IMG/VR virus record: IMGVR_UViG_3300021962_000103
Coordinates: 1 to 62,113 of that record
Length of the DNA stretch: 62,113 nucleotides
DNA from: a virus
Reading direction: 5' to 3' (one strand)
Under the pieces are notes generated by a model that was not told the origin of the DNA, did no database searches, and saw only the letters and a list, made by a program, of their open reading frames with translations. The translations under genes and the position numbers were made by a program. Below are positions 29,601 through 58,306 of this stretch, piece by piece; the stretch's first letter is position 1, and each line of letters starts with the position of its first letter.

Positions 29601-30154
29601 TATTCTTCCTCCTTGATTTTACCACACTTCAAACATTCTTCTTCTCCATCACCATCAACATCACCCCAAACATGGTCACATTGTCTATGTGCAAAGTATT
29701 CATCAATAATACCATCCCCATCGAAATCAATACCATCCATAATACCATCACCATCTTCATCGATTTCTACACCAACTCTTGGTTGTGGTTCTACAACTTC
29801 TATTTCATTTACAACTGATTTTGGTGGTGGTGGTAAATCAGGTGCATCTCCACCTAATGTATTAGATAAAGAAACTCCATCTTCTTCATCCATCTTTTGT
29901 ACTAACATTTTATCCTTATCAGTATCACTAAACCAGTAATCAATAATTTTACCATACGAACCAATAAAGGCACCTAACATAAGAAGTAATAATTCTTTCC
30001 ATTCCTGACCTACAACTGTTTCAGTATGAATTGAAATTACAATACCCAATGTTAATAATAAAAAAGTAAATAAAACGATGGCTGTTATTAACCATCTTCG
30101 TTTCATCATTGAATATAAAAGGTCTCTAAAACCTGTGTTTTGTGGTTGTTCCAT
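29600..30154 (-). CDS. Holin-like membrane protein with Ca-binding repeats and a Cys/His tail
   Basis: 184 residues. Two hydrophobic helices (about 21-42 and 54-70) end in GSYGKIIDYWFSDTDKD, which resembles the end of the 3-TM holin family. The C-terminal half is a Pro linker, then DEDGDGIMDGIDFDGDGIID (about 131-150) and DVDGDGEE, repeats of the calcium-binding DxDGDG type, then a Cys-x-His...Cys-x-x-Cys possible zinc knuckle. Holins permeabilise the inner membrane for lysis timing. The Ca-binding tail is unusual. It is the first gene of its own late unit. Confidence 0.65.
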   Translation of the reverse strand: MEQPQNTGFRDLLYSMMKRRWLITAIVLFTFLLLTLGIVISIHTETVVGQEWKELLLLMLGAFIGSYGKIIDYWFSDTDKDKMLVQKMDEEDGVSLSNTLGGDAPDLPPPPKSVVNEIEVVEPQPRVGVEIDEDGDGIMDGIDFDGDGIIDEYFAHRQCDHVWGDVDGDGEEECLKCGKIKEEE

Positions 30155-30644: not shown

Positions 30645-32363
30645 TTAAATGATTTTCTTCTTCACTATATAGTTGTGTAAAACCAAAGTATCCATTTCAC
30701 AATTCAAGAATGTTTTTACCGCGGTTTCAGGGTCTAATACCATTGTTTGGTCTTTTAGATTGAATGAAGTATTTAACACAATTGGATAACCATTATCTAC
30801 CTCCAACTGATTAAGTAGTTTGTAGATACGAGTGTGTTGTCTATTATTAAGAGTTTGTATTCTTGCAGAACCATCAATGTGAGTAATCGCCGGTAAGTTC
30901 TTTTGATGTTCTTTCTTTACCTTAACTACTTGGTTCATATAAGGAACTAATTGTTTGTACTCAAAATACTTTAATCGTTCTTCTTCTTTTACAATTGGTG
31001 CAAAAGGTCTGAACCCTTCTCTCTTTTTAATTACACGATTAACTCGTGCCTTCATTTGAGGGTCTCTTGGATTAGCAAGAATAGAACGATTCCCAAGGGC
31101 TCGAGCACCGAACTCCATTCTACCTTCGAACCAACCAATGACATTACCATCAGTAATTTCTCTACTAATGATTGGGATAATTTGTGAGTGGTTTTTGTAT
31201 TCATACCAAACATCATCTTTATATTTTTCTAAAACTTCTACTATCTCTTCGTTTGTATAAGAAGGACCTAAATAAGGATTTGTATTAACAACTCTTTTCT
31301 TATTGTTCATTTCATTATACCAATAGTATAATCCTGCACCGATTGCAGAACCAGCATCAGATGGTGCGGCTGGAATCCACAATCCTTTGAATGGAGTTAA
31401 ATCTAAAATCTTACCATTTGCAGTTCCATTGTATGCACAACCCCCACTCAAACATAAATTATTAGCAGGTCTTAATGCAATTGCACGATTTAATAATTTA
31501 AAGAAATATTTTTCATAAGTTACTTGAACTGCTGCAGCAAAATCTTTATGTTCTTGGGTAAGTTCTTCTTCGGGTAATCTATTTAATAATCCAAAGTGTT
31601 CACCCAACTTTTCGTTGAACATCATATCATCTGACCAATCGTAATCAAAGAAATTCATGTTGATTTCAAATCCATTAGTTTCGGTTGGTGAAATAATATC
31701 ATCAAACTTTTTTAAGTAAGTATATGGATTACCATAAGGTGCAAGACCCATAACCTTATATTCACCTTCATTGGGTTTAAATCCTAAGAATGCAGTCATT
31801 GCAGAATAAAACATTCCCAATGAATGTGGAAAATGAATTGTTTCTAATTTGATGATTCGATTTTCATCACCGTATGCAATTGCAGTAGTTTCCCACTCTC
31901 CAACTCCATCTACCGATACAATCATTGCCCGTTCGTATGGAGATGTATAATATGCGTACGCAAGATGGGAAAGATGATGTTCTGAATAAAACACGGTTGA
32001 GTTTGGAAATTGTTTTTTAATTTCTTTTTCTACCTTTTTATATTCTTGTTTATTTCTATAAATGATTTCTTGTCTATGAACTTCTCGAAAGAACCCACCT
32101 CTCTTTGTAGATTTTTCAATTCTATCTATTTTGAGTTTTGGGTTTTCATAGAAACAAACTATCTCAATATCATCTTTGGTTATTTTTTCATTTTCCAATA
32201 ACCAATTAATTGTATTGGTTGGGAAGGATGAATCGTGTTTAATACCAGTGAATCTTTCTTCTTCACACGCACCAATCACTTCACCATTTTTAATTAAAGC
32301 AGCTGCAGAATCATGGTAACCAGAACTAATTCCTAAAATATAACAATCTTTAATCCTCATCAT
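30645..32363 (-). CDS. Carbamoyltransferase (NodU/TobZ family)
   Basis: 572 residues. The start YILGISSGYHDSAAALIKNG, the metal-site segment EHHLSHLAYAYYTSP, VSVDGVGEWETT and the C-terminal GWFEGRMEFGARALGNRSIL are the family signature for O-carbamoyltransferases that make carbamoyl-adenylate and transfer it to a sugar hydroxyl. Full length for the family, so likely active. These enzymes occur as auxiliary genes in some marine phages. Start chosen at the first ATG; the alternative TTG adds one residue. The gene overlaps the end of the late-sigma gene, so the two are coupled. It may modify phage or host glycans together with the sugar-transfer genes here. Confidence 0.9.
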   Translation of the reverse strand: MMRIKDCYILGISSGYHDSAAALIKNGEVIGACEEERFTGIKHDSSFPTNTINWLLENEKITKDDIEIVCFYENPKLKIDRIEKSTKRGGFFREVHRQEIIYRNKQEYKKVEKEIKKQFPNSTVFYSEHHLSHLAYAYYTSPYERAMIVSVDGVGEWETTAIAYGDENRIIKLETIHFPHSLGMFYSAMTAFLGFKPNEGEYKVMGLAPYGNPYTYLKKFDDIISPTETNGFEINMNFFDYDWSDDMMFNEKLGEHFGLLNRLPEEELTQEHKDFAAAVQVTYEKYFFKLLNRAIALRPANNLCLSGGCAYNGTANGKILDLTPFKGLWIPAAPSDAGSAIGAGLYYWYNEMNNKKRVVNTNPYLGPSYTNEEIVEVLEKYKDDVWYEYKNHSQIIPIISREITDGNVIGWFEGRMEFGARALGNRSILANPRDPQMKARVNRVIKKREGFRPFAPIVKEEERLKYFEYKQLVPYMNQVVKVKKEHQKNLPAITHIDGSARIQTLNNRQHTRIYKLLNQLEVDNGYPIVLNTSFNLKDQTMVLDPETAVKTFLNCEMDTLVLHNYIVKKKII

Positions 32364-33114
32364 CAAATATATCGTCTTCTAAATCTAACTTAGAAGTATC
32401 AATCCAAAATGGTTTATCTTTTACCGAAAATTCACCATCTTCAAGATACTCATTTAACATTTTTTTCTGATGTTGTTTCATTACATTTACAACCTTAGTA
32501 ATGTAGTGAGTTTTACAATCAGTCATTTCTCTAATAAGTAGATATAAATGTTTTTTATTAAAATTTTCTATGTATTGACTTCTACGAAAAAGTTCTAATA
32601 CTGCGTCTGCAATTTGTATATCTCTTTTCTTATTAAATACGGTTGCAAGGTGTCTATCCCAATACTCTAACATTATATCTTTAAACTCTCGGAACTCACC
32701 TGCCTCTTCCATTTCATAGTAATCATTTTCGGGATTCCATGATTCTGGCATTTCTGATAATAAGGCATTTTGTTTCCATCGTTTAAAGTTACCATTATTT
32801 TTTAAAATCAAATGATTCTTTGCAATAATAGTAAAGTATGAGAATGCTCTACCCTTACCTTCTTTGTACATATGCATTTTTTCAATCATGGTGGAAACCA
32901 CCTCTGTTTGAATATCTTTTTTAGGTACATCAAAGTACGAGAATTTAAATGTATTGATTACATTCTCTGCTAATTTTTCAAATGGATACTTAATTCTATC
33001 TTCATAAATCTTAGACCTTTTCATTGGGTCTTTTGTTTTATTATACTCAACGATTGCATCTTGAGCAGGAGTACCAAAATATATTTTAGATTTTGGTTTT
33101 CTTTGTTTTGTCAT
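32350..33114 (-). CDS. 55: Late transcription sigma factor (gp55-like)
   Basis: 254 residues. Residues about 40-110 look like a sigma-70 region 2: RIKYPFEKLAENVINTFKF, then a DIQTEVVSTMIEKMHMY helix and KGRAFSYFTIIAKNHLI. T4-like gp55 proteins share this core and no sigma region 4, and direct RNA polymerase to late promoters with a -10 box only. The long acidic C-terminal tail may contact the clamp. It is encoded in the unit behind the host-type promoter at 34363, consistent with middle expression. It is the best candidate to read the TATTTATA boxes of this genome. Confidence 0.8.
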   Translation of the reverse strand: MTKQRKPKSKIYFGTPAQDAIVEYNKTKDPMKRSKIYEDRIKYPFEKLAENVINTFKFSYFDVPKKDIQTEVVSTMIEKMHMYKEGKGRAFSYFTIIAKNHLILKNNGNFKRWKQNALLSEMPESWNPENDYYEMEEAGEFREFKDIMLEYWDRHLATVFNKKRDIQIADAVLELFRRSQYIENFNKKHLYLLIREMTDCKTHYITKVVNVMKQHQKKMLNEYLEDGEFSVKDKPFWIDTSKLDLEDDIFDDED

Positions 33115-50223: not shown

Positions 50224-50762
50224 ATTAATGTTTTATTTTCGGTTTGTCTTGTTGTAGATTTAATTGTTATATCAGAAATTTCAATGTTATAATCCAACTC
50301 AATGATAAAATTTAAAATTTTAAATAAATCCTCAAATTTTAGTTTATTATAATCACCTCCAAACATTTTGTTATTTTCCAATGTACTTGGATTAAAATTT
50401 ATTATTCTAACTTTTTTATATGGGTTTGCTATATTTAATGTTTGTGATAAATTTATTAAATGTTTTTTATTAGAAACATACAAAGGACTAAAGCACCCGT
50501 CTTCGTGTATTGCAGAAGTTCCAAAGTTTATTATTGTTTTTTCTAAATTTTTCCATTTCTCAAATAACTCATAAAATACCAAAGATTGTTTTACATCTTT
50601 GCTATAAGCATGATTTAAAAACATATCACATGATTCTATCTTTGATATTATAACATCAATATCTTCTCTTAAATCTATTTTTATTATATCATTGTGTTGT
50701 CCCCATGCAATTGATGCATAGTTACCAAACCCATCCGATGTACCTGATATTGCTATTCTCAT
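50220..50762 (-). CDS. Rossmann-fold protein (SDR-like)
   Basis: 180 residues. MRIAISGTSDGFGNYASIAW resembles the short-chain dehydrogenase nucleotide loop (TGxxxGxG), and an INFGTSAIHEDG strand follows with a later Tyr/Lys-rich stretch (YVSNKKHLI), the site of the SDR catalytic Tyr-x3-Lys. Shorter than a full SDR (about 250), so an incomplete or diverged enzyme. An NAD(P)-dependent sugar or residue oxidation is possible. Confidence 0.55.
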   Translation of the reverse strand: MRIAISGTSDGFGNYASIAWGQHNDIIKIDLREDIDVIISKIESCDMFLNHAYSKDVKQSLVFYELFEKWKNLEKTIINFGTSAIHEDGCFSPLYVSNKKHLINLSQTLNIANPYKKVRIINFNPSTLENNKMFGGDYNKLKFEDLFKILNFIIELDYNIEISDITIKSTTRQTENKTLI

Positions 50763-51262
50763 AATAACTTAGAGTTTGCTATATTTAAATGATATTTGTT
50801 TAAGAATAATATAAGTGACCATCGTTCACCTTTTGTTATCTTTTTTACTTCATGTTCTCTATCACTTCTCATCGTGTAAATAGTACCAACAACTTTTGGA
50901 AGTATTTCATCTGGATTATATGCAATAAATTCACCACCTTCATATTCATCGTTTAAGCAAACACCAATATTTAAAAGTTGGTCTGGATGATTTGTTGAAT
51001 CATTATGTCTGGCAAATTCATTCCCAGTCAAATAACGATGTAAATAAATCTCTGGCATTTCGTATAGTTTATTATTGGGATATTCTGTTTTCAAAAAATC
51101 AGATAATCTATTAAAAATCCATTGAGTGGTTGAATCTCTAACTACAACATGATAATAATAATTAAAATCCTGTCTTTTAAATAAATTCGAAGAATGTGTT
51201 GATTTAAATATATTAGATAAATTTATTATTTCGGCACATTCGTTTTTTGTAAATGAAATCAT
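50759..51262 (-). CDS. 2OG-Fe(II) dioxygenase (prolyl hydroxylase-like)
   Basis: 167 residues. Metal ligands H86-x-D88 and H137; R147 in KKITKGERWSLILFL binds 2-oxoglutarate. The sequence LNDEYEGGEF after the HxD is the double-stranded beta-helix turn of the prolyl 4-hydroxylase type. Its ending (HEVKKITKGERW) is nearly the same as in the gene at 53704, so the two come from duplication. Overlaps both neighbours by four bases. Confidence 0.88.
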   Translation of the reverse strand: MISFTKNECAEIINLSNIFKSTHSSNLFKRQDFNYYYHVVVRDSTTQWIFNRLSDFLKTEYPNNKLYEMPEIYLHRYLTGNEFARHNDSTNHPDQLLNIGVCLNDEYEGGEFIAYNPDEILPKVVGTIYTMRSDREHEVKKITKGERWSLILFLNKYHLNIANSKLL

Positions 51263-51801
51263 AATATTTTTTTATTATCATATAATTTTAAATATTTAAA
51301 ATTAGTATTTGTCATCCAAATGTTTAAGGCACACCTAATACCATTTACAACTGGCATTACCCCATGATATATTTTACTACCATCAAACGATATTGATTGT
51401 CCAATTTTTAATTCATACTTTTCAGAATCAGTTTGTTTATGTGTTTCGGATAACATGAATCTCCCATCTGTAAAATTATCATTTAAAACTATAACAGTTG
51501 TCAATTGTGAAGTTGAATCTAAATGTAAATCCAATCTCCTACCTTCATAATATTTAGTTATACTGATGTTGACATCTTTGATTTCAAACTCTTCCAATGG
51601 AAACCATAATTTGAATTTATTATCATCATAGTTTTTTATAAATCTATCAATGATTAATTTGTTAAAATCAACATCTGCTATTCTTTTACAATCCCACACT
51701 TCGGTTGGATTATAATTAAATTTTTTACCAACTCTATCTGCGTATTCAATAATTGAATTACATTCTTCTTTTTCAAAAAAATTATTTATCGAATAATTCA
51801 T
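51259..51801 (-). CDS. 2OG-Fe(II) dioxygenase
   Basis: 180 residues. H93-x-D95, H146 and R156 make up the metal and cosubstrate site; LNDNFTDGRF is the turn after the HxD strand. An N-terminal helical region differs from that of the other copies. It is followed by a gene with another dioxygenase in the same unit. Target unknown. Confidence 0.85.
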   Translation of the reverse strand: MNYSINNFFEKEECNSIIEYADRVGKKFNYNPTEVWDCKRIADVDFNKLIIDRFIKNYDDNKFKLWFPLEEFEIKDVNISITKYYEGRRLDLHLDSTSQLTTVIVLNDNFTDGRFMLSETHKQTDSEKYELKIGQSISFDGSKIYHGVMPVVNGIRCALNIWMTNTNFKYLKLYDNKKIL

Positions 51802-52433
51802 AATATTTTTTTCTCCGTAGTATCAGTTTTAAAATCAACAATTGGTTCGTTTACTTCTAACAAATCATGTAATTTTTTATACACATCATAACAACCAACT
51901 GGGCCGGGATGAAAATCTATCTCCTCACCAACTCCCTCATCCCAATTAGAAGTAGTCTGAATTAAAGTAACGAAGTCTGAAGTGCCTAAATAGAATTGTT
52001 CACTCCAAGTAACAAAGACTGGTTTATATAAATTTAACCATTTTTTTAAATTTTTTATAAAATTTATGTCATTTTGTCTAATACCGTTTACCCAATTATC
52101 ACCCTCAACTAATCTTAACTGGTCTAATTTTTTGGCAAAATGCTTATCCTTAAAAAAATTTGGTGATTTATATGGGTTATCTATAAAAGTAGAATGTCTT
52201 TCACCATAGTATCTTCTAGGTAATCTACCTGCATCTGTAAAATATATAACAATTCTATCACCCTCGATGTAATCACCTAAATTTCCTAACTGAAATAATA
52301 TAGAATAATTATCAGCTCCCAATTTACCGAACTTAATAACTTCATAATGGTTTTCTAAATAATGAGTCCAATGAAATTTAGGTAAGTGCCAATCAACAAA
52401 AGAATCACCAAAACAAAATAATCGAGGTTTCAT
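51798..52433 (-). CDS. SGNH/GDSL-like hydrolase
   Basis: 211 residues from ATG at 52433 (MKPRLFCFGDSFVDW); an upstream ATG at 52490 would run through the small gene at 52447 and is rejected. GDSFVD is block I of SGNH hydrolases, with the Ser nucleophile; GADN (Gly/Asn region) and the C-terminal DFHPGPVGCYDVYKKL carry the Asp/His pair. Members remove acyl groups from sugars or esters. Located between dioxygenases, so it may remove or add an O-acyl mark. Confidence 0.65.
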   Translation of the reverse strand: MKPRLFCFGDSFVDWHLPKFHWTHYLENHYEVIKFGKLGADNYSILFQLGNLGDYIEGDRIVIYFTDAGRLPRRYYGERHSTFIDNPYKSPNFFKDKHFAKKLDQLRLVEGDNWVNGIRQNDINFIKNLKKWLNLYKPVFVTWSEQFYLGTSDFVTLIQTTSNWDEGVGEEIDFHPGPVGCYDVYKKLHDLLEVNEPIVDFKTDTTEKKIL

Positions 52434-52446
52434 AACTACTATTTTT

Positions 52447-52611
52447 TTAATTTTTTTTCCACCACCCAAATTGAAATTTTTTTTCATCAAGATTAGTATG
52501 TGTGGTATCCATATTAAATGGTTCTGCTATAACATGATATTTTTGATTACCAAAAGCATTTGATAATGATATTGTTCCACATCTACCTATCCCCACTAAC
52601 AAAATTTTCAC
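52447..52611 (-). pseudogene. Truncated sulfotransferase-like P-loop gene
   Basis: 54 codons from a GTG at 52611 (overlapping the preceding stop as GTGA) to TAA at 52447-52449. The product starts VKILLVGIGRCGTISLSNAF and goes on with IAEPFN, like the first 40 residues of the sulfotransferase-like protein at 49735 (IGLPRTGSTS, EPFD). The rest of the domain is missing and the end is a Lys-rich run, so it is either a decayed copy or a kept short peptide. An interrupted paralogue is more likely. Confidence 0.65.
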
Positions 52612-53108
52612 AGTAAAGATTGTTTTTTATTAAACATGATAACCAATACTCTTCGTTGTCCTGACTCTACCGATGTCACAGAATGTATGTGTGTATGACC
52701 GTTGAATGAAATATATTGACCTTTTTTTGTTAAATTCATATCAGTATCATCAACTAATAGTTTACCTCCAGTAAATGAATCAGATAGTAGTATTAAAGTT
52801 GTTTGTAACACATAATATGCATCTCTATGTGGTGTTGTGTAATCGCCCGTATCATAAATCAGTTCATAGAAAAAATCTATATCATAATCCGGATTTCCAA
52901 ATTTATTTAATATAAATTTATTAAGTTCACTATCATGTAATCCATAATGTTTCATTGATGATAATATAAGTGCATTATCATCTCTCATTACTGCGTATGG
53001 ATGTTTTTTTTGTAAAGTTTTATATTCAATTTCACTCATTCCCATATTCTTTGAAAGGGAATCATTAATATAATTTAACTCATCTTGTGTTAGAAAATCT
53101 ACAATCAT
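52608..53108 (-). CDS. 2OG-Fe(II) dioxygenase
   Basis: 166 residues. H94-x-D96, H142, and an Arg (152/153) in GQRRVLVIMF; LLSDSFTGGKL is the turn. The family plan is that of prolyl hydroxylase-like enzymes. Follows the 53110 gene with a one-base gap. Substrate unknown. Confidence 0.85.
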   Translation of the reverse strand: MIVDFLTQDELNYINDSLSKNMGMSEIEYKTLQKKHPYAVMRDDNALILSSMKHYGLHDSELNKFILNKFGNPDYDIDFFYELIYDTGDYTTPHRDAYYVLQTTLILLSDSFTGGKLLVDDTDMNLTKKGQYISFNGHTHIHSVTSVESGQRRVLVIMFNKKQSLL

Positions 53109-53109
53109 T

Positions 53110-53700
53110 TTATAATAATGTTTTTTTATTATCGTTATTAAATTTTTTTTCTCGTATCCAAATAACTAAAATATATTTAATACCATCTATAACAGGTAAT
53201 CCTGCATGTTTAGTTCTCCTATTTGGTGTTCTATCTTCATTTAAATTTTTCCAAAATAATAAATCACCAACTCTACCCTTTATTTTAATATTTTCAGAAG
53301 GAAATACAGTTTCACCTCCAATATAATTATCATTTAAATATATAATACTTGTTATTAACCTGTCTCCCATTTGTGGTTGGGGTATATTTTCTATGTTGCC
53401 AAAAAAATCGTGATGGGGTTTATATTGATTGCCCGTTTCATATTTAATAAAAGAAATTGGGGTTTCTTGATTATCAATATCAGTATTTGTTTTAATTGAT
53501 ACTATTTTACGAACTTTTTTTAAAAGAATACTTTCATCATCATAAAGACCAATTTTTGCATCTCTATAATTTATAGTACCAACTATGGTTTCTGCCGTTT
53601 TGAATTTATTAAATTCATCTATTAAATTTTTACACTCTATACTTGTTAGTACGTTTTCTTCAAGTTGGTAAGTAAAAATATCATTTTTTAATAATTTCAT
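53110..53700 (-). CDS. 2OG-Fe(II) dioxygenase (prolyl 4-hydroxylase-like)
   Basis: 196 residues. H96-x-D98 and H165 are in place (KPHHDFFG, RTKHAGLPV), and LNDNYIGGETVFP is the classic P4H turn. The usual cosubstrate Arg is Lys (K175) in DGIKYILVIWIR, as in P4H enzymes. It is the longest copy with the clearest match to prolyl 4-hydroxylases. Hydroxylation of proline in a phage or host protein is a fair working guess. Confidence 0.9.
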   Translation of the reverse strand: MKLLKNDIFTYQLEENVLTSIECKNLIDEFNKFKTAETIVGTINYRDAKIGLYDDESILLKKVRKIVSIKTNTDIDNQETPISFIKYETGNQYKPHHDFFGNIENIPQPQMGDRLITSIIYLNDNYIGGETVFPSENIKIKGRVGDLLFWKNLNEDRTPNRRTKHAGLPVIDGIKYILVIWIREKKFNNDNKKTLL

Positions 53701-53703
53701 AAT

Positions 53704-54198
53704 TCATATAACACTTTTTATTTTAGTTGTATCTTTTTTTAAATCTCTAAATCGTAAAAAAAATAATGCAGAGTATCGTGTACCTTTTGTTATTTTTTTA
53801 ACTTCATGATATTCATTTGATTTGTAATGATAAATCTCTCCCATCGGTTTTGGGTATGGAACATCATTTAAATAAAATTCACCACCCTCATAATCATCAT
53901 TTAATAAAACATTTATGTTATATATAAAATCCTTAGTATGTTTTGTTCCTCCCATATCTATATGTCTAGCAAATACATCGCCGGGGAAATATTTTATAAT
54001 ACCAACTTCAAGATTGATTATATCTATATTTAATTGTGTTTTACAATATTCAATAATCAAGTTTTTAATATCACCATCTTCTAATGCAAGTACAACGGTT
54101 CTATACGATGTTTTAACACCAAATCTTATTCGTTTCCACTCATCTTTAGATTCGGCCAAATTAATCAAATACTCACATTGTTCTTTAGTTAGATTCAT
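53704..54198 (-). CDS. 2OG-Fe(II) dioxygenase
   Basis: 164 residues. H79-x-D81, H131 and R141 (HEVKKITKGTRYSALFFLR). Close in sequence to the gene at 50759-51262, whose last motif is almost the same. The N-terminal KEQCEYLINLAES helix is shared too. Starts four bases inside the preceding gene. Confidence 0.88.
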   Translation of the reverse strand: MNLTKEQCEYLINLAESKDEWKRIRFGVKTSYRTVVLALEDGDIKNLIIEYCKTQLNIDIINLEVGIIKYFPGDVFARHIDMGGTKHTKDFIYNINVLLNDDYEGGEFYLNDVPYPKPMGEIYHYKSNEYHEVKKITKGTRYSALFFLRFRDLKKDTTKIKSVI

Positions 54199-54692
54199 AT
54201 AATTGTTTTATTTAATTTATCATCATCTACAAAATTTGTTATAGAACCATAAATACCAATTCTATTTGGTATTGAACAACTACTTCCTATAAAATTTTCA
54301 GTTTTAAATAGTAATAGGTCACCATCATCTACTGATATTTCATTTATACCGGTTTGTGAATTTATTAAAATTTTACTATTTAAAGATTTTGTAAAAAAAA
54401 TAAATGAATACTTTGATATTAGATTTATATCATTTTTTAATTGTTTGGTAAATTTAATTTCTTCATTATTGTTTTCGGTGAAAGTAAAAATAGTTTTAAC
54501 ATATGTATTGAAATTTTCACCAGTCATTAATTTTAATTCATCTAAAATATTTTCTATTAGATGTGAAAAAATCTTTGATTGAATCATTAATATTCTTTTG
54601 TTAGATTGTATTTTTACATTCTTGACATTTGTATTTATTTCATCCTCTAAAGATATCAAATCAACATTTAATTTTATTATTTTATATAGCAT
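54195..54692 (-). CDS. Degenerate dioxygenase-like protein
   Basis: 165 residues. It has the size, position and end pattern (SFIFFTKSLNSKILI, then GDLLLFKTENFIG and RIGIYGSITNF) of the neighbouring dioxygenases, but no HxD pair or distal His is visible in the expected places. The Arg before IGIYG aligns with the cosubstrate Arg. So the fold may be kept without metal binding, as a pseudoenzyme or scaffold. Less likely, it is unrelated. Similarity is by eye only. Confidence 0.5.
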   Translation of the reverse strand: MLYKIIKLNVDLISLEDEINTNVKNVKIQSNKRILMIQSKIFSHLIENILDELKLMTGENFNTYVKTIFTFTENNNEEIKFTKQLKNDINLISKYSFIFFTKSLNSKILINSQTGINEISVDDGDLLLFKTENFIGSSCSIPNRIGIYGSITNFVDDDKLNKTII

Positions 54693-54694
54693 AA

Positions 54695-55324
54695 TTAGTT
54701 AGTTACATAATCATAAAAATTAATTCTTTTGTTTGTTTCTCTGGTGTGTGTAAAATTATAGTTAATGTTTGTTGTATATACAATTCTATTTGATTTTGCT
54801 TGTAATGTTGGTATTGGCATGTGGGGTAAATCGCCGGGAAAAAATATTATATCATTTTCCTTTGGTGTAAATGAATGAAGTATATCATCTTCTGTTTTAA
54901 AAATCAAATTACCCTCATCATCTTTTAAGTTTGGAGGTATCTGAATATAAAAAACATAGGTCCATTGTGTTTTTAAGATGGTTCTGTTTGATGATTCAAC
55001 CCAATCGTGTGTATGCATCCATTCTATTTTAAATTCGGGAATTTGAACATATATCCAACTTGATGTTACATATGTATTTATGGGTGTGGATAACTTTGAT
55101 TCTAAAAAATTTAAAGATTGGGTATCTACCGATTTAAATTCATCACATTCAATGTGTAATTCAAGTGAATTGGGGTATTCTGATTTTTTACCATGGTACA
55201 ACAACTCGTTTTGTTTTACTCTATTTAAAAAATCATCTTTAGAGTATTTTCTATTATATGTTGTTTTATAGATTGTATATTTTTCAGATAAATTATATTG
55301 TTCGAAATCTCCTAAGCTTTTCAT
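54695..55324 (-). CDS. 2OG-Fe(II) dioxygenase, phage-type
   Basis: 209 residues from ATG at 55324 (MKSLGDFEQYNL); an earlier start at 55357 would overlap the SET gene by 65 bases instead of 32. WMHTHDW (H104, H106, D107) and, later, FFPGDLPHMPIP with H168 and R180 (SNRIVYTTN) match the phage HxH...G...FPxxLxH...R type of oxygenase, a different branch from the five prolyl-type copies. It is larger and more divergent, pointing to a different substrate. Confidence 0.75.
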   Translation of the reverse strand: MKSLGDFEQYNLSEKYTIYKTTYNRKYSKDDFLNRVKQNELLYHGKKSEYPNSLELHIECDEFKSVDTQSLNFLESKLSTPINTYVTSSWIYVQIPEFKIEWMHTHDWVESSNRTILKTQWTYVFYIQIPPNLKDDEGNLIFKTEDDILHSFTPKENDIIFFPGDLPHMPIPTLQAKSNRIVYTTNINYNFTHTRETNKRINFYDYVTN

Positions 55325-55727
55325 ACTTGCCGTATTTTGTAAATAATTCGCTGCCACACTTTATATTTTTTTTAGAGATTAATAAATCTCTATCCATATT
55401 AGGTTCTTCATTCCATGAACAACTATTAACCCAATGTAGGGGATTTTTAAATATCCAATGACAATCCTTGTTAAGAATTATTCTCATTTTCCAACTACCC
55501 ATATGATTATCGAAAGAAAACATATCGTATAAATGATATTGTACATTTTCGTCTAATTGGAAAAAATCATCTTGATTTAAAAAATATTCTCCAGATTCAC
55601 CCTCCCAATTAACAAATAGGGGCTCACCCTCTTTAATTGTTCTTAATGCAAACACACCAACTCCTTGTACTGTACTTGGTGCCAATTTTACATTTACATG
55701 ATTTTTAACATATTCAAATGCTGTCAT
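55293..55727 (-). CDS. SET domain protein
   Basis: 144 residues. LAPSTVQGVGVFALRTIKEG is the start of a SET domain (GxGxFA...I..G), and NSCSWNEEPN plus CGSELFTKYG is its end (NH/NS...N and GExL...YG). SET domains transfer methyl groups from SAM to lysine. The usual Asn-His is Asn-Ser here. It lies in tandem with the SET gene at 55724, overlapping by four bases. The phage SAM synthetase could supply SAM. Confidence 0.75.
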   Translation of the reverse strand: MTAFEYVKNHVNVKLAPSTVQGVGVFALRTIKEGEPLFVNWEGESGEYFLNQDDFFQLDENVQYHLYDMFSFDNHMGSWKMRIILNKDCHWIFKNPLHWVNSCSWNEEPNMDRDLLISKKNIKCGSELFTKYGKYEKLRRFRTI

Positions 55728-56197
55728 ATAAAGTTTTTTGGGTTTGTTTTAAATTGAGAACCATAGTTTGCTAATATTTCTTCACCTTTCTTAATTTTTT
55801 TAATGGCGAAAGCACCTTTGTTTGATAGGGTGTCTACATTAGCTTTACTCAATCCACTATTTAAAAACATTGATGGCCAAACAAATACCCAATGACATCC
55901 TTTAATTAAAGGAAAAAATATTTTACCATATTCAAATCTTAATAATGAAATTTCATTATTTTCATCATGTGAATAAAGTTTATTATCAAAAGTTTCGTAT
56001 ATACTTTTTTCAAGTTCAACCGGTAATGTAAATAATTCTTCTTGTGTTATTGAATATATACCCGTTTCGCCTGTCCAAGGTTCAAAAATAAACGTACCCT
56101 CTTCAATATCTTTTATGGCGAAAAAACCCACACCCGCAACAGAACTGGGTTTGATTATACTAACAACCTTTTGCTGTAGATATTCTATTGGACTCAT
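55724..56197 (-). CDS. SET domain protein
   Basis: 157 residues. IKPSSVAGVGFFAIKDIEEG and the C-terminal FLNSGLSKANVDT with KKGEEILANYG are SET end motifs. Its paralogue is the next gene. A lysine methyltransferase is implied, but the catalytic Tyr is only probable (NYG). First of the two SET genes after the 47-residue peptide gene. Confidence 0.75.
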   Translation of the reverse strand: MSPIEYLQQKVVSIIKPSSVAGVGFFAIKDIEEGTFIFEPWTGETGIYSITQEELFTLPVELEKSIYETFDNKLYSHDENNEISLLRFEYGKIFFPLIKGCHWVFVWPSMFLNSGLSKANVDTLSNKGAFAIKKIKKGEEILANYGSQFKTNPKNFI

Positions 56198-56214: not shown

Positions 56215-56358
56215 TTAAGAATGTTTAACTTTTATCAACTCCATTAGTTTTGATAATATAGTAAACCCCTTTTCTTTTTTTTCATCACTAATTGGAGAAC
56301 CTTGTCTCAATTTAGCATCAATAATACTTATTGACTTATATTCAGTTGGTTTTATCAT
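56215..56358 (-). CDS. 47-residue peptide gene at the head of the island
   Basis: Read by hand: MIKPTEYKSISIIDAKLRQG, then SPISDEKKEKGFTILSKLM and a basic C-terminus ending KHS. It lies five bases after the Hint-domain gene and 17 before the SET gene. Two helical halves, no Cys and no signal. It could be a substrate or regulator for the modifying enzymes, or just a small phage protein; no evidence decides. Confidence 0.55.
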   Translation of the reverse strand: MIKPTEYKSISIIDAKLRQGSPISDEKKEKGFTILSKLMELIKVKHS

Positions 56359-56363
56359 GGTTC

Positions 56364-58241
56364 TTATAATTTTGGTGTATATAATCTATTATGAACTAAT
56401 ACATTGTTAGCAAAAAAGTTGTGGTTGTTTTCAACATCTTGTAAATTATAAACAACAACTGGTTCGTTGATTTGATTGATGTTAACTATTTTAGAATTAC
56501 CATCAACTAATCTTAAAGTATCACCAATCTCAATCTTATTAACAGGTGTCTCTAAACTATATAATTTATTTGATAATCCATTATCATATGATGACCATCC
56601 TTTATTTTCAACATATAGTGGGTGGTCCAAAGTACATCTTACTATATCACCATTATCCAATTCGTATTCAACAGTTGCATCTACTTTTTTACTAAAAACA
56701 GCATTAACTACATTTGCTTCAACAACTTGGGTTAACATATTAAATGTTAATACCTCATCTCCATTAACAACATCTTCAATGTTTTTCATATCACCATTTG
56801 AAAGAGATATTTGTGTACCTGCAACAAAACAAGGTGAGTTGTGAGTTACGAATGAGTTGATTGGTGTTGAACCTGCAATAATATATGTATCAGTATCTTC
56901 TACATCTATTTCAACCAAACCAAAATCATCTTCATTTATTATTAAGATATCGGAGGTTGTAACTTGTGCCATCGAACCATCATAATCAATTAAATAATCG
57001 GTTGTTGCTTGAACATCTCGAGATTGTTTCCATACAATTGAATCCATTCCACTATCATAAACCAAGAATGATTTATATGTTGATACATACAAAGAATCCT
57101 CATTATTGTTTACGGTCAATCTACATAGTGTTTTATTTTCTAATGGTTTACTGTTTTTATAAATAACGGTTGATGTTGTTAACTCAGAACCAGATGGTAG
57201 TGTGTTTCCTTCTATTTTCCATGTAGGGTAAGTAAAATCATCTTCTGTTAAATCAGTACCACCAATGTAATATGATTTAATATCATCACCTACTGCAAGA
57301 TTACCTATTTCTATTTCAGTATCATCTGCTTTAATTACTAAATGTGTGTTTAATATACCATCAACTCTACCATCGTATTTAATAAAATTAGTTGCAAATT
57401 CATAGTAATGTTTTGCATCAATTCTATTTACATATTGATTATCATTATAAATTGGCTCAGTTGGTAATTCAAAAACAGAGTTTTCTTGAAACTGACCAAC
57501 ATGGATTAAAGATAAATCTGCACCATAAATTATTGAAAATGTTCTTATTGAGGAAACTCTATTATTCGATAGTGTTTCTAAACTTTTATGATATTTCTGA
57601 ATAAGAATATCTTCTCCTGTAACAGAATTAATAAATGAATTCCATCTAGTTTCGGATGTATCTGCTTCAGATTCGGCTCCTATTTTATAAAACCCAATTG
57701 CAGAATGACTTTCATCACTAATATTTTTTACTAAACAATCAGGTAAATTATTTGGATTAAACTCTCGTGTTAGTGTATCGGTAGTTGATAAAGAAGAAGA
57801 GTGATAGAATTCAGTCACCATATCCTCTTGATTATAATCCACAAATAATTGTAAAGTATTTAATGTTCCTTTTGCATATTCACTATCAAAAATAGCAGAT
57901 TCATCATATGCCATTCTTAGGATAAACAAATCATCCGCATCTTCAACAATAGTTGGATATATTCTAGTTACCTGTTCCTTTACTTCATTGAATTCTACAA
58001 TAAAAGGTGCATCGGATACTAAGTATTGTGCTAGTTTATTAACAATTTCCTGATGAATTACTGGTTTATGAATTACAGTAACTTTTGTAATATTATTAAG
58101 CTGTAATACATCTTTGAGATTATCAAAATTTAAATATGTTAAATTGTTTGCAGAAACGGTTGTATCGGTATTAACCTCTAACAATCTTAGATTACCGTTA
58201 TTATCTTCAACAAAATCCGCGGAAAAAAATGTTCCTTTCAT
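56364..58241 (-). CDS. Phage protein with two tandem Hint (intein-like) domains
   Basis: 625 residues. The N-terminal half starts GTFFSADFVEDNNGNLRLLE followed by VNTDT, like the metal-binding strand pair of ATP-grasp enzymes, and is otherwise unassigned. Residues 295-468 form a first Hint fold: the N-terminal nucleophile position is Gly (G295, in GILNTHLVIKADD), GNLAVGDDI follows and the end is FVTHN (H467, N468) then S469. Residues 471-618 form a second: C471 in CFVAGTQISL, a TLDH motif and an end VHN (H617, N618), then only seven residues beginning with Arg. Each lacks one splice residue, so cleavage rather than splicing is expected. First gene of the island, with a late box. Confidence 0.8.
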   Translation of the reverse strand: MKGTFFSADFVEDNNGNLRLLEVNTDTTVSANNLTYLNFDNLKDVLQLNNITKVTVIHKPVIHQEIVNKLAQYLVSDAPFIVEFNEVKEQVTRIYPTIVEDADDLFILRMAYDESAIFDSEYAKGTLNTLQLFVDYNQEDMVTEFYHSSSLSTTDTLTREFNPNNLPDCLVKNISDESHSAIGFYKIGAESEADTSETRWNSFINSVTGEDILIQKYHKSLETLSNNRVSSIRTFSIIYGADLSLIHVGQFQENSVFELPTEPIYNDNQYVNRIDAKHYYEFATNFIKYDGRVDGILNTHLVIKADDTEIEIGNLAVGDDIKSYYIGGTDLTEDDFTYPTWKIEGNTLPSGSELTTSTVIYKNSKPLENKTLCRLTVNNNEDSLYVSTYKSFLVYDSGMDSIVWKQSRDVQATTDYLIDYDGSMAQVTTSDILIINEDDFGLVEIDVEDTDTYIIAGSTPINSFVTHNSPCFVAGTQISLSNGDMKNIEDVVNGDEVLTFNMLTQVVEANVVNAVFSKKVDATVEYELDNGDIVRCTLDHPLYVENKGWSSYDNGLSNKLYSLETPVNKIEIGDTLRLVDGNSKIVNINQINEPVVVYNLQDVENNHNFFANNVLVHNRLYTPKL

Positions 58242-58268: not shown

Positions 58269-58276
58269 TATAAATA
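58269..58276 (-). promoter_or_regulatory. Putative late promoter box for the modification island
   Basis: TATTTATA within TTATATTTATATAAG, 28 bases before the ATG at 58241. Follows the end of the PhoH gene by about 30 bases. Confidence 0.75.
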
Positions 58277-58306
58277 TAATAAACTTTAAATAAGTGATGT
58301 ATTTAA

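Follow-up and report, generated by a model that had tools for sequence, protein, structure and literature searches.

A two-gene unit of large uncultivated phages: a predicted ATP-grasp-type protein with tandem Hint domains and its companion peptide

In this study, we analyzed a 62,113-nucleotide viral DNA (the window, meaning that whole stretch), a T4-like myovirus fragment with gp46-like SbcC and baseplate gp6 and gp25 genes, and found in it a 625-residue protein in which a predicted ATP-grasp domain is followed by two tandem Hint domains and whose gene has an obligate partner, a gene for a peptide of about 47 residues. Our leading reading, which we hold tentatively, is that the two genes form a late-expressed unit in which a self-processing, ATP-dependent carboxylate-amine ligase would work with a small partner peptide. 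The components of this Hint array on an ATP-grasp domain belong to known superfamilies, while the whole assembly matches no system that we found. A first-pass annotation, made from the letters alone, had placed two Hint domains at residues 295–468 and 471–618 with only Ser-Pro between them, and its open reading frame, strand and residue numbers were all correct, as were the residues it listed for Hint2 (Cys471, T537-H540, H617-N618, Arg619 and a seven-residue tail). It did not foresee that relatives carry up to four Hints, that the last Hint is swapped, that the N-terminal domain is of the glutathionylspermidine synthetase (GspS)/YgiC type or that the peptide gene is obligate. The layout is residues 1–293, Hint1, Ser-Pro, Hint2 and RLYTPKL (Table 1), and the full-length AF2 model has a pLDDT of 85.6. 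The reading frame is complete, because it could be extended upstream in frame by only four codons and because its start, M-[KQN]-[GA], is common to all homologues.

Table 1. Features of the two-gene unit, in window positions.
Feature	Position	Strand	Evidence or remark
ATP-grasp/poly-Hint protein, 625 aa	56364..58241	-	Open reading frame; 68 distinct homologues
N-terminal domain, residues 1-293	57363..58241	-	AF2, Foldseek, VIA, hhalign, invariant residues
Hint1, residues 295-468; position 1 Gly, TxxH absent, His-Asn end	56838..57359	-	hhalign, VIA, conservation
Conserved insertion in Hint1, residues 327-357, absent from Hint2	57171..57263	-	Family comparison
Ser469-Pro470 linker, Hint1 to Hint2	56832..56837	-	Sequence; family range 0-12 residues
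Hint2, residues 471-618; Cys1, TxxH, His-Asn; A-type BIL-like	56388..56831	-	Pfam, NCBIfam, PDB, VIA
Cys471, nucleophile position 1	56829..56831	-	102/102 copies
T537-L-D-H540, block B TxxH	56622..56633	-	93/102 copies
His617-Asn618, block G end	56388..56393	-	92/92 copies with intact end
Tail Arg619-Leu625 and stop	56364..56387	-	Single Lys here in most relatives
Companion ORF, 47 aa, MIKPTEYKSISIIDAKLRQGSPISDEKKEKGFTILSKLMELIKVKHS	56215..56358	-	ATG 5 nt past stop of large gene
Promoter-like element ATATTTATA	58269..58277	-	28-36 nt 5' of start codon; probably late promoter

Scans of IMG/VR identified 68 distinct homologues with the N-terminal domain, all from uncultivated phages, and the arrangement is conserved in aquatic phages, in line with the suggestion of the first-pass annotation that it may be conserved in marine ones. 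All 61 full-length homologues consist of the N-terminal domain and Hint1 followed by zero to three Hint2-type domains, mostly one or two (none in 2 proteins, one in 22, two in 31 and three in 6, a few of these counts being lower bounds where the contig ends), and the recurrence of this tandem order in dozens of proteins is far beyond chance. The nearest homologues, on contigs of 219, 132 and 13 kb, are 72–73% identical to the window protein, and the remainder 32–54%. No member was found in a collection of 50,697 named phages and another of 84,980 genomes; tblastn of named phages, with the full-length protein, Hint1 and three N-terminal domains as queries, returned unrelated Hints or chance matches only, and none of 29 pattern matches in bacterial and archaeal genomes was confirmed. 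The nearest named phage by gp6, Microcystis phage Mel-JY01 (42%), has no detectable copy of the gene, and the open-access literature, with subscription papers outside the scope, held nothing on tandem Hints or phage ATP-grasp–Hint proteins.

Hint2 matched Pfam Intein_splicing (E 1.5e-10) and NCBIfam intein_Nterm (E 2.6e-8) and, among PDB sequences, Tetrahymena BIL2 (6tmm and 6y75) and 2lwy, and the structure closest to its model was 6y75 (Z 24.4, 1.4 Å over 147 residues). The cleavage-site residues, whose conservation in homologues was one half of the check that the first-pass annotation had set for its proposal, proved constant: in counts over members that are not phylogenetically independent, Cys occupies position 1 of the Hint2-type copies in 102/102 cases, a His-Asn end is present in all 92 complete domains (43/43 internal and 49/49 intact last Hints) and Hint1 ends in Asn in 61/61 proteins. 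TxxH is present in 93 of the 102 Hint2-type copies, eight of the nine exceptions belonging to a terminal type in which the His-Asn end is missing as well. The residue after His-Asn (+1) is Cys, Ser or Thr in 0 of 92 junctions; it is R in 23, K in 7, F in 6, Y in 3, L in 2 and I and W in 1 each after internal Hints, and K in 46 and R in 3 after the last Hint, where the stop codon mostly follows directly. With Arg619 at +1 and a tail of seven residues, Hint2 lacks the nucleophilic +1 residue and the C-extein of a class 1 intein, and it has the sequence features of an A-type BIL, namely a Hint fold with Cys1 and TxxH, a His-Asn end and a non-nucleophilic +1 residue. As A-type BILs, which lack a +1 nucleophile, mostly cleave (PMC4031507, PMC7765530), these features and the +1 counts together argue strongly that Hint2 would cut rather than splice.

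The Hints lie 0–12 residues apart, and in 12 proteins the Asn of Hint1 directly abuts Cys1 of the next Hint. Pro stands at –1 of Cys1 in 29/102 junctions, including that of Cys471, and in inteins a Pro at this position is expected to impede the N-S acyl shift, a point against our leading reading. Close pairs whose dS is not saturated (L030/L033 and L014/L017) have dN/dS of about 0.10–0.13 for Hint1 (about 0.1) and the other Hints, and all Hint modules are thus under purifying selection. The terminal type with Cys1 and no His-Asn end (..SEHNFIVEDFIVSGLGDNELLN..; L032, L037, L044, L056, L098, L104, L128 and L163) is shared between distant members, and given its end only N-side cleavage would be possible in it, which also tells against the leading reading. 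As a separate observation, the best Pfam match of Hint2 (window 56388–56831) is AXH, the ataxin-1/HBP1 module (E 9e-16, over the cut-off), which 47 of 51 homologues also match; ataxin-1 structures match the profile (E 7e-12), and these matches suggest kinship between AXH and Hint domains. Similarity to pretoxin Hints was also detected for the family's Hints.

Library searches with Hint1 on its own gave no match, and its assignment comes from a comparison of its profile (54 sequences) with a clean Hint2 profile (hhalign 97.6%, E 3.5e-12) and from the full-length model, in which VIA aligned Hint1 with inteins at Z 15–17.6 (best 6zgq, Z 17.6) and residue 295 fell on intein position 1 in most of the rows aligning Hint1. 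The first-pass annotation was right that Gly295 replaces the N-terminal Cys and that the domain ends in His-Asn; it counted one missing splice feature where there are two, since TxxH is also lost, and the Ser it noted at +1 is present in the window and not conserved, being Ala in the nearest relatives. Without Cys or Ser at position 1 and without TxxH, Hint1 differs from class 1 inteins. A class 3 intein was rejected as well, there being no Cys in conserved columns and none in the block-F stretch of the window protein (441–457). Among 51 homologues Gly295 is at least 90% conserved and Asn468 invariant, and a His-Asn end is kept in 58/61 proteins despite the absence of an N-side nucleophile. 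The insertion within Hint1 follows the family pattern SP.TD..W..G..LPsGS..TsS. The earlier view that neither domain can splice in the classic way is supported for both, and self-cleavage is the likely chemistry.

The N-terminal domain was modeled alone from 63 sequences with high confidence (AF2 pLDDT 90.8), and the ATP-grasp-like strand pair mentioned in the first-pass annotation turned out to belong to a whole ATP-grasp-type domain by AF2, VIA, Foldseek and hhalign. In a Foldseek comparison with the PDB the best match was E. coli YgiC (7uk8, E 8e-7, probability 1.00), followed by glutathione synthetases, and VIA-align gave human glutathione synthetase (GSS; 2hgs, Z 10.6), yeast GSS with AMP-PNP/Mg (Z 10.5), YgiC 7uk8 (Z 9.7), YjfC (Z 9.3) and GspS 2io7 (Z 8.6). 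All of these alignments were collinear from residue 1 to about residue 288, and the next group had Z of 6 or lower, ArgX being among the weak fold matches (Z 5.8). As modeled, the domain is a compact, circularly permuted ATP-grasp of the glutathionylspermidine-synthetase/YgiC/eukaryotic glutathione-synthetase type. Support from sequence is local (hhalign of the family against YgiC/YjfC, E 3.4e-4, residues 8–95), and together with the moderate fold Z of 8–10 this weighs against our leading reading. A Pfam scan of 51 members gave no GSP_synth or ATP-grasp model over the cut-off and one weak ATPgrasp_ST match (E 0.06), which is why we class the domain by its ATP-grasp fold and not as a GspS. Sequence comparison with solved structures returned chance thioredoxin matches only, and a BFVD search with the fold found no other viral protein at E≤1e-3. 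R2K-type ATP-grasp ligases occur in jumbo phages and are a different family (PMC7824862).

Eleven residues are invariant in the 63 N-terminal domains (D9, E22, N24, D26, K59, R109, E114, D119, K172, K186 and R233). By the VIA offset, in which model residue 1 is YgiC 94, D9, E22, N24 and D26 correspond to YgiC D102, E115, N117 and D119, which are invariant in YgiC, YjfC and Gss and serve as Mg-site residues in GspS. The catalytic Arg of GspS-type enzymes (YgiC R100, two residues before the Mg Asp) is an invariant Ser7 in the family, and the N-terminal part found in YgiC, GSS and GspS enzymes is absent, both of which weigh against the leading reading. The invariance of Lys172, Lys186 and Arg233 argues for a live ATP site, so that the domain is probably active, and since a GspS/YgiC-type domain keeps the Mg-site residues, the 625-residue protein is probably a ligase besides a self-cutter. 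With moderate confidence, we consider the domain a live carboxylate-amine ligase. RefSeq names YgiC and YjfC peptide-spermidine ligases.

The companion gene escaped the initial lists of open reading frames, for which its 47 codons fell below the size limit. A small open reading frame of 43–63 residues follows the large gene closely in 61/61 representatives with downstream DNA, usually 1–31 nt past the stop codon (range 1 to 99 nt), and its peptides have an invariant Tyr beside Lys, Arg or Gln, many lysines and mostly a ..KH[SLTM] end. A profile of the peptide found 189 copies (redundant, from family loci), all directly behind a family gene and none alone, and the exact pattern of one subgroup found nine stretches in all viral contigs, again all behind a family gene. 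The median dN/dS is 0.18 (35 pairs). The peptide had no significant PHROG, no real match in phages and no family in the searched libraries. Its fusion to the last Hint by read-through or frameshifting was ruled out by the variable spacing of 1–99 nt. No intrinsic terminator was found in the ~166 nt behind the large gene, a gap that holds the small reading frame. Distances between peptides covary more with those of Hint1 and the first Hint2 (rho 0.55 and 0.54) than with those of the N-terminal domain (0.31) or the adjacent last Hint (0.15; bootstrap 5–95% of the difference between Hint1 and last Hint 0.17–0.60, n 29), which suggests a functional link between the peptide and Hint1 and the first Hint across the swapped module. 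The peptide gene is thus an obligate partner of the large gene, and there are weak to moderate grounds for regarding its product as a substrate or adaptor of the ligase.

Phages exchange the last Hint as a cassette. When 95 Hint2-type copies were placed in a tree, those adjacent to Hint1 and those at the end of the protein were largely separate, and near-identical last Hints are found on distant proteins. The last Hints of L070 and L035 are 99% identical in amino acids (dS 0.19) versus 31–43% for the N-terminal domain, Hint1 and first Hint, and comparable contrasts with the rest of the protein were found in L029/L053 (82% versus 28–45%), L006/L019 (81% versus 32–44%) and L037/L032 (86% versus 30–49%). 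DNA identity runs from Cys1 of the last Hint, or just before it, to the stop codon, and there are at least four terminal types. Judged by its distances, the companion peptide is not transferred with the cassette. A pattern scan of viral contigs for the cassette in other families gave 30 stretches, all in the ATP-grasp/Hint family. Two separate Hint reading frames were also observed: a free-standing one of 166 residues in L005 (10724–11221, Cys1 to HNKNL), 2.4 kb behind that phage's own family gene and possibly a released or donor cassette, and a degenerate one without Cys1 or His-Asn in L070 (29–529), 3' of the family gene.

The element ATATTTATA has 11 copies in the window on the coding strand and none on the other, seven of them 24–36 nt ahead of gene starts. 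It precedes genes starting at 30154, 29300, 23906, 16296, 11008 and 9004, of which 23906 heads the baseplate genes and is followed by gp25-like and gp6-like genes, and the motif is also ahead of most homologues. It is likely the late promoter of this phage group, and since it stands before the ATP-grasp/Hint gene, where the baseplate genes begin and ahead of most homologues, late expression of the ATP-grasp/Hint gene would follow. The neighborhood of that gene consists of PhoH, SET and 2OG-oxygenase genes rather than structural genes. In most loci the gene pair is followed on its 3' side by 2OG-Fe(II) oxygenase or SET-domain genes, with 2OG genes behind it in 80/107. In the window, positions 50759–56197 beside the pair hold a series of 2OG-Fe(II) oxygenase-like genes together with two SET-domain genes in tandem, and a NolO-like carbamoyltransferase lies at 30645–32366; in 19 loci carbamoyltransferases likewise occur close to the family gene.

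Under our leading reading, residues 1–293 would use ATP to activate a carboxylate, which they would couple to an amine. Cys471 would form a thioester with the acyl group before it, Asn618 would cyclize, or both, and the chain would be cut before Cys471 or after Asn618 with no splicing, further Hints in relatives behaving alike. Hint1, its N-side chemistry lost, may still cut after Asn468 through its His-Asn end, its body probably now serving for recognition. Once processed, the enzyme (roughly residues 1–468/470) would act with the 47-residue peptide, which would most likely provide the carboxylate or the amine to be joined and otherwise be an adaptor. An extended form, which we regard as speculative and on the whole unlikely and which would amount to a novel type of protein modification system, is that ATP-grasp and Hint-thioester chemistry are coupled, the enzyme attaching itself or the peptide to a polyamine, a lysine or a virion or host amine, with Hint1 recognizing the peptide and swaps of the last Hint altering the outcome.

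Tetrahymena BIL2 of BUBL1 joins an upstream ubiquitin-like domain to lysine without ATP (PMC8616854), and for that reason we retain a serious alternative, less likely in our estimation, in which the Hint thioester itself ligates, although the proposal of the first-pass annotation that it might ligate something, for example to a sugar, lipid or protein, gained no direct support: Cys471 would pass residues 1–470 to an amine on a lysine of the companion peptide or of a virion protein, or to a polyamine, with the ATP-grasp part supplying or holding the amine. BIL2 is the closest structure to Hint2, the Hints lie at the extreme C-terminus as in Hedgehog, implying that the upstream product matters, Lys is at +1 in nearly all last Hints, and the peptide is rich in lysine, with its invariant Tyr by Lys or Arg; set against this, the first junction often has Pro at –1, the +1 residue after internal Hints is mostly Arg, a poor nucleophile, and a live ATP-grasp site would be superfluous. 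We consider it improbable that the protein is a late virion or assembly protein matured by Hint self-cleavage, with an inactive ATP-grasp scaffold and a minor structural peptide as its companion. The promoter-like motif is shared with the baseplate region and other phage Hint proteins exist; however, invariant Mg- and ATP-site residues in 63 sequences are unexpected for a mere scaffold, and the neighboring genes are not structural.

We give a similarly low probability to a reading of the Hint modules as C-terminal cassettes, mobile or selfish, that hardly affect their host protein. Exchange bounded near Cys1 and the stop codon (L070/L035, L029/L053) and the free-standing Hint in L005 would fit such elements, but there is no homing endonuclease, PT-HINT had one match per contig in 12 large contigs, in each case the ATP-grasp/Hint gene, the exact end pattern of the cassette is confined to this family, and Hint1 and the first Hint, which covary with the peptide, are not swapped in this way. 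A pair of the toxin/antitoxin or effector/immunity kind, in which the processed ligase would target the host and the small gene product restrain it until release, would account for an obligate 3' gene, swapped C-terminal modules and the similarity to pretoxin Hints; we regard it as very improbable, as the swapped part is a Hint with no toxin domain behind it and 1–7 residues follow the last Hint.

Hint2 has in common with the A-type BILs of BIL2 (6y75/6tmm) and C. thermocellum (2lwy) the Hint fold, Cys1, TxxH, His-Asn and the non-nucleophilic +1 residue, and in the BUBL polyubiquitin locus, too, a single chain carries several processing domains (PMC8616854, PMC4031507). In contrast to BIL and BUBL proteins, the phage Hints are back-to-back, with a first member that is inactive on its N side and a last one that is swapped as a cassette, and they have as cargo an ATP-grasp enzyme rather than ubiquitin-like domains. 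The N-terminal domain resembles GspS, YgiC/YjfC and eukaryotic GSS in the predicted fold of residues 1–288, strand order and D/E/N/D Mg-site pattern, but differs from them in lacking their N-terminal part, in having Ser7 for the catalytic Arg, in its C-terminal Hint array, in being phage-encoded and in its weak sequence similarity. LysX/ArgX-LysW and graspetide systems likewise consist of an ATP-grasp enzyme and a small peptide, and the phage gene also adjoins a small peptide gene, although its ATP-grasp order differs, a Hint is fused to it and the peptide resembles no searched family. As in Hedgehog/Hog proteins, a C-terminal Hint could activate the upstream protein, whereas the phage Hint2 has a His-Asn end and, with seven residues following, no sterol-recognition region.

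Hints usually occur singly, as in inteins, BIL proteins, pretoxins and Hedgehog, whereas this group of large, aquatic phages, with no isolate in the searched collection, has up to four consecutive Hints on an enzyme that resembles a ligase and has a peptide gene dedicated to it. Should the processing prove real, the family would offer protein engineering a ready natural set of tandem, non-splicing, swappable cleavage modules, and the purpose of self-cutting modules with nothing behind them would become testable. A GspS-like ligase and its obligate peptide would also give phages a new means of modifying peptides or polyamines.
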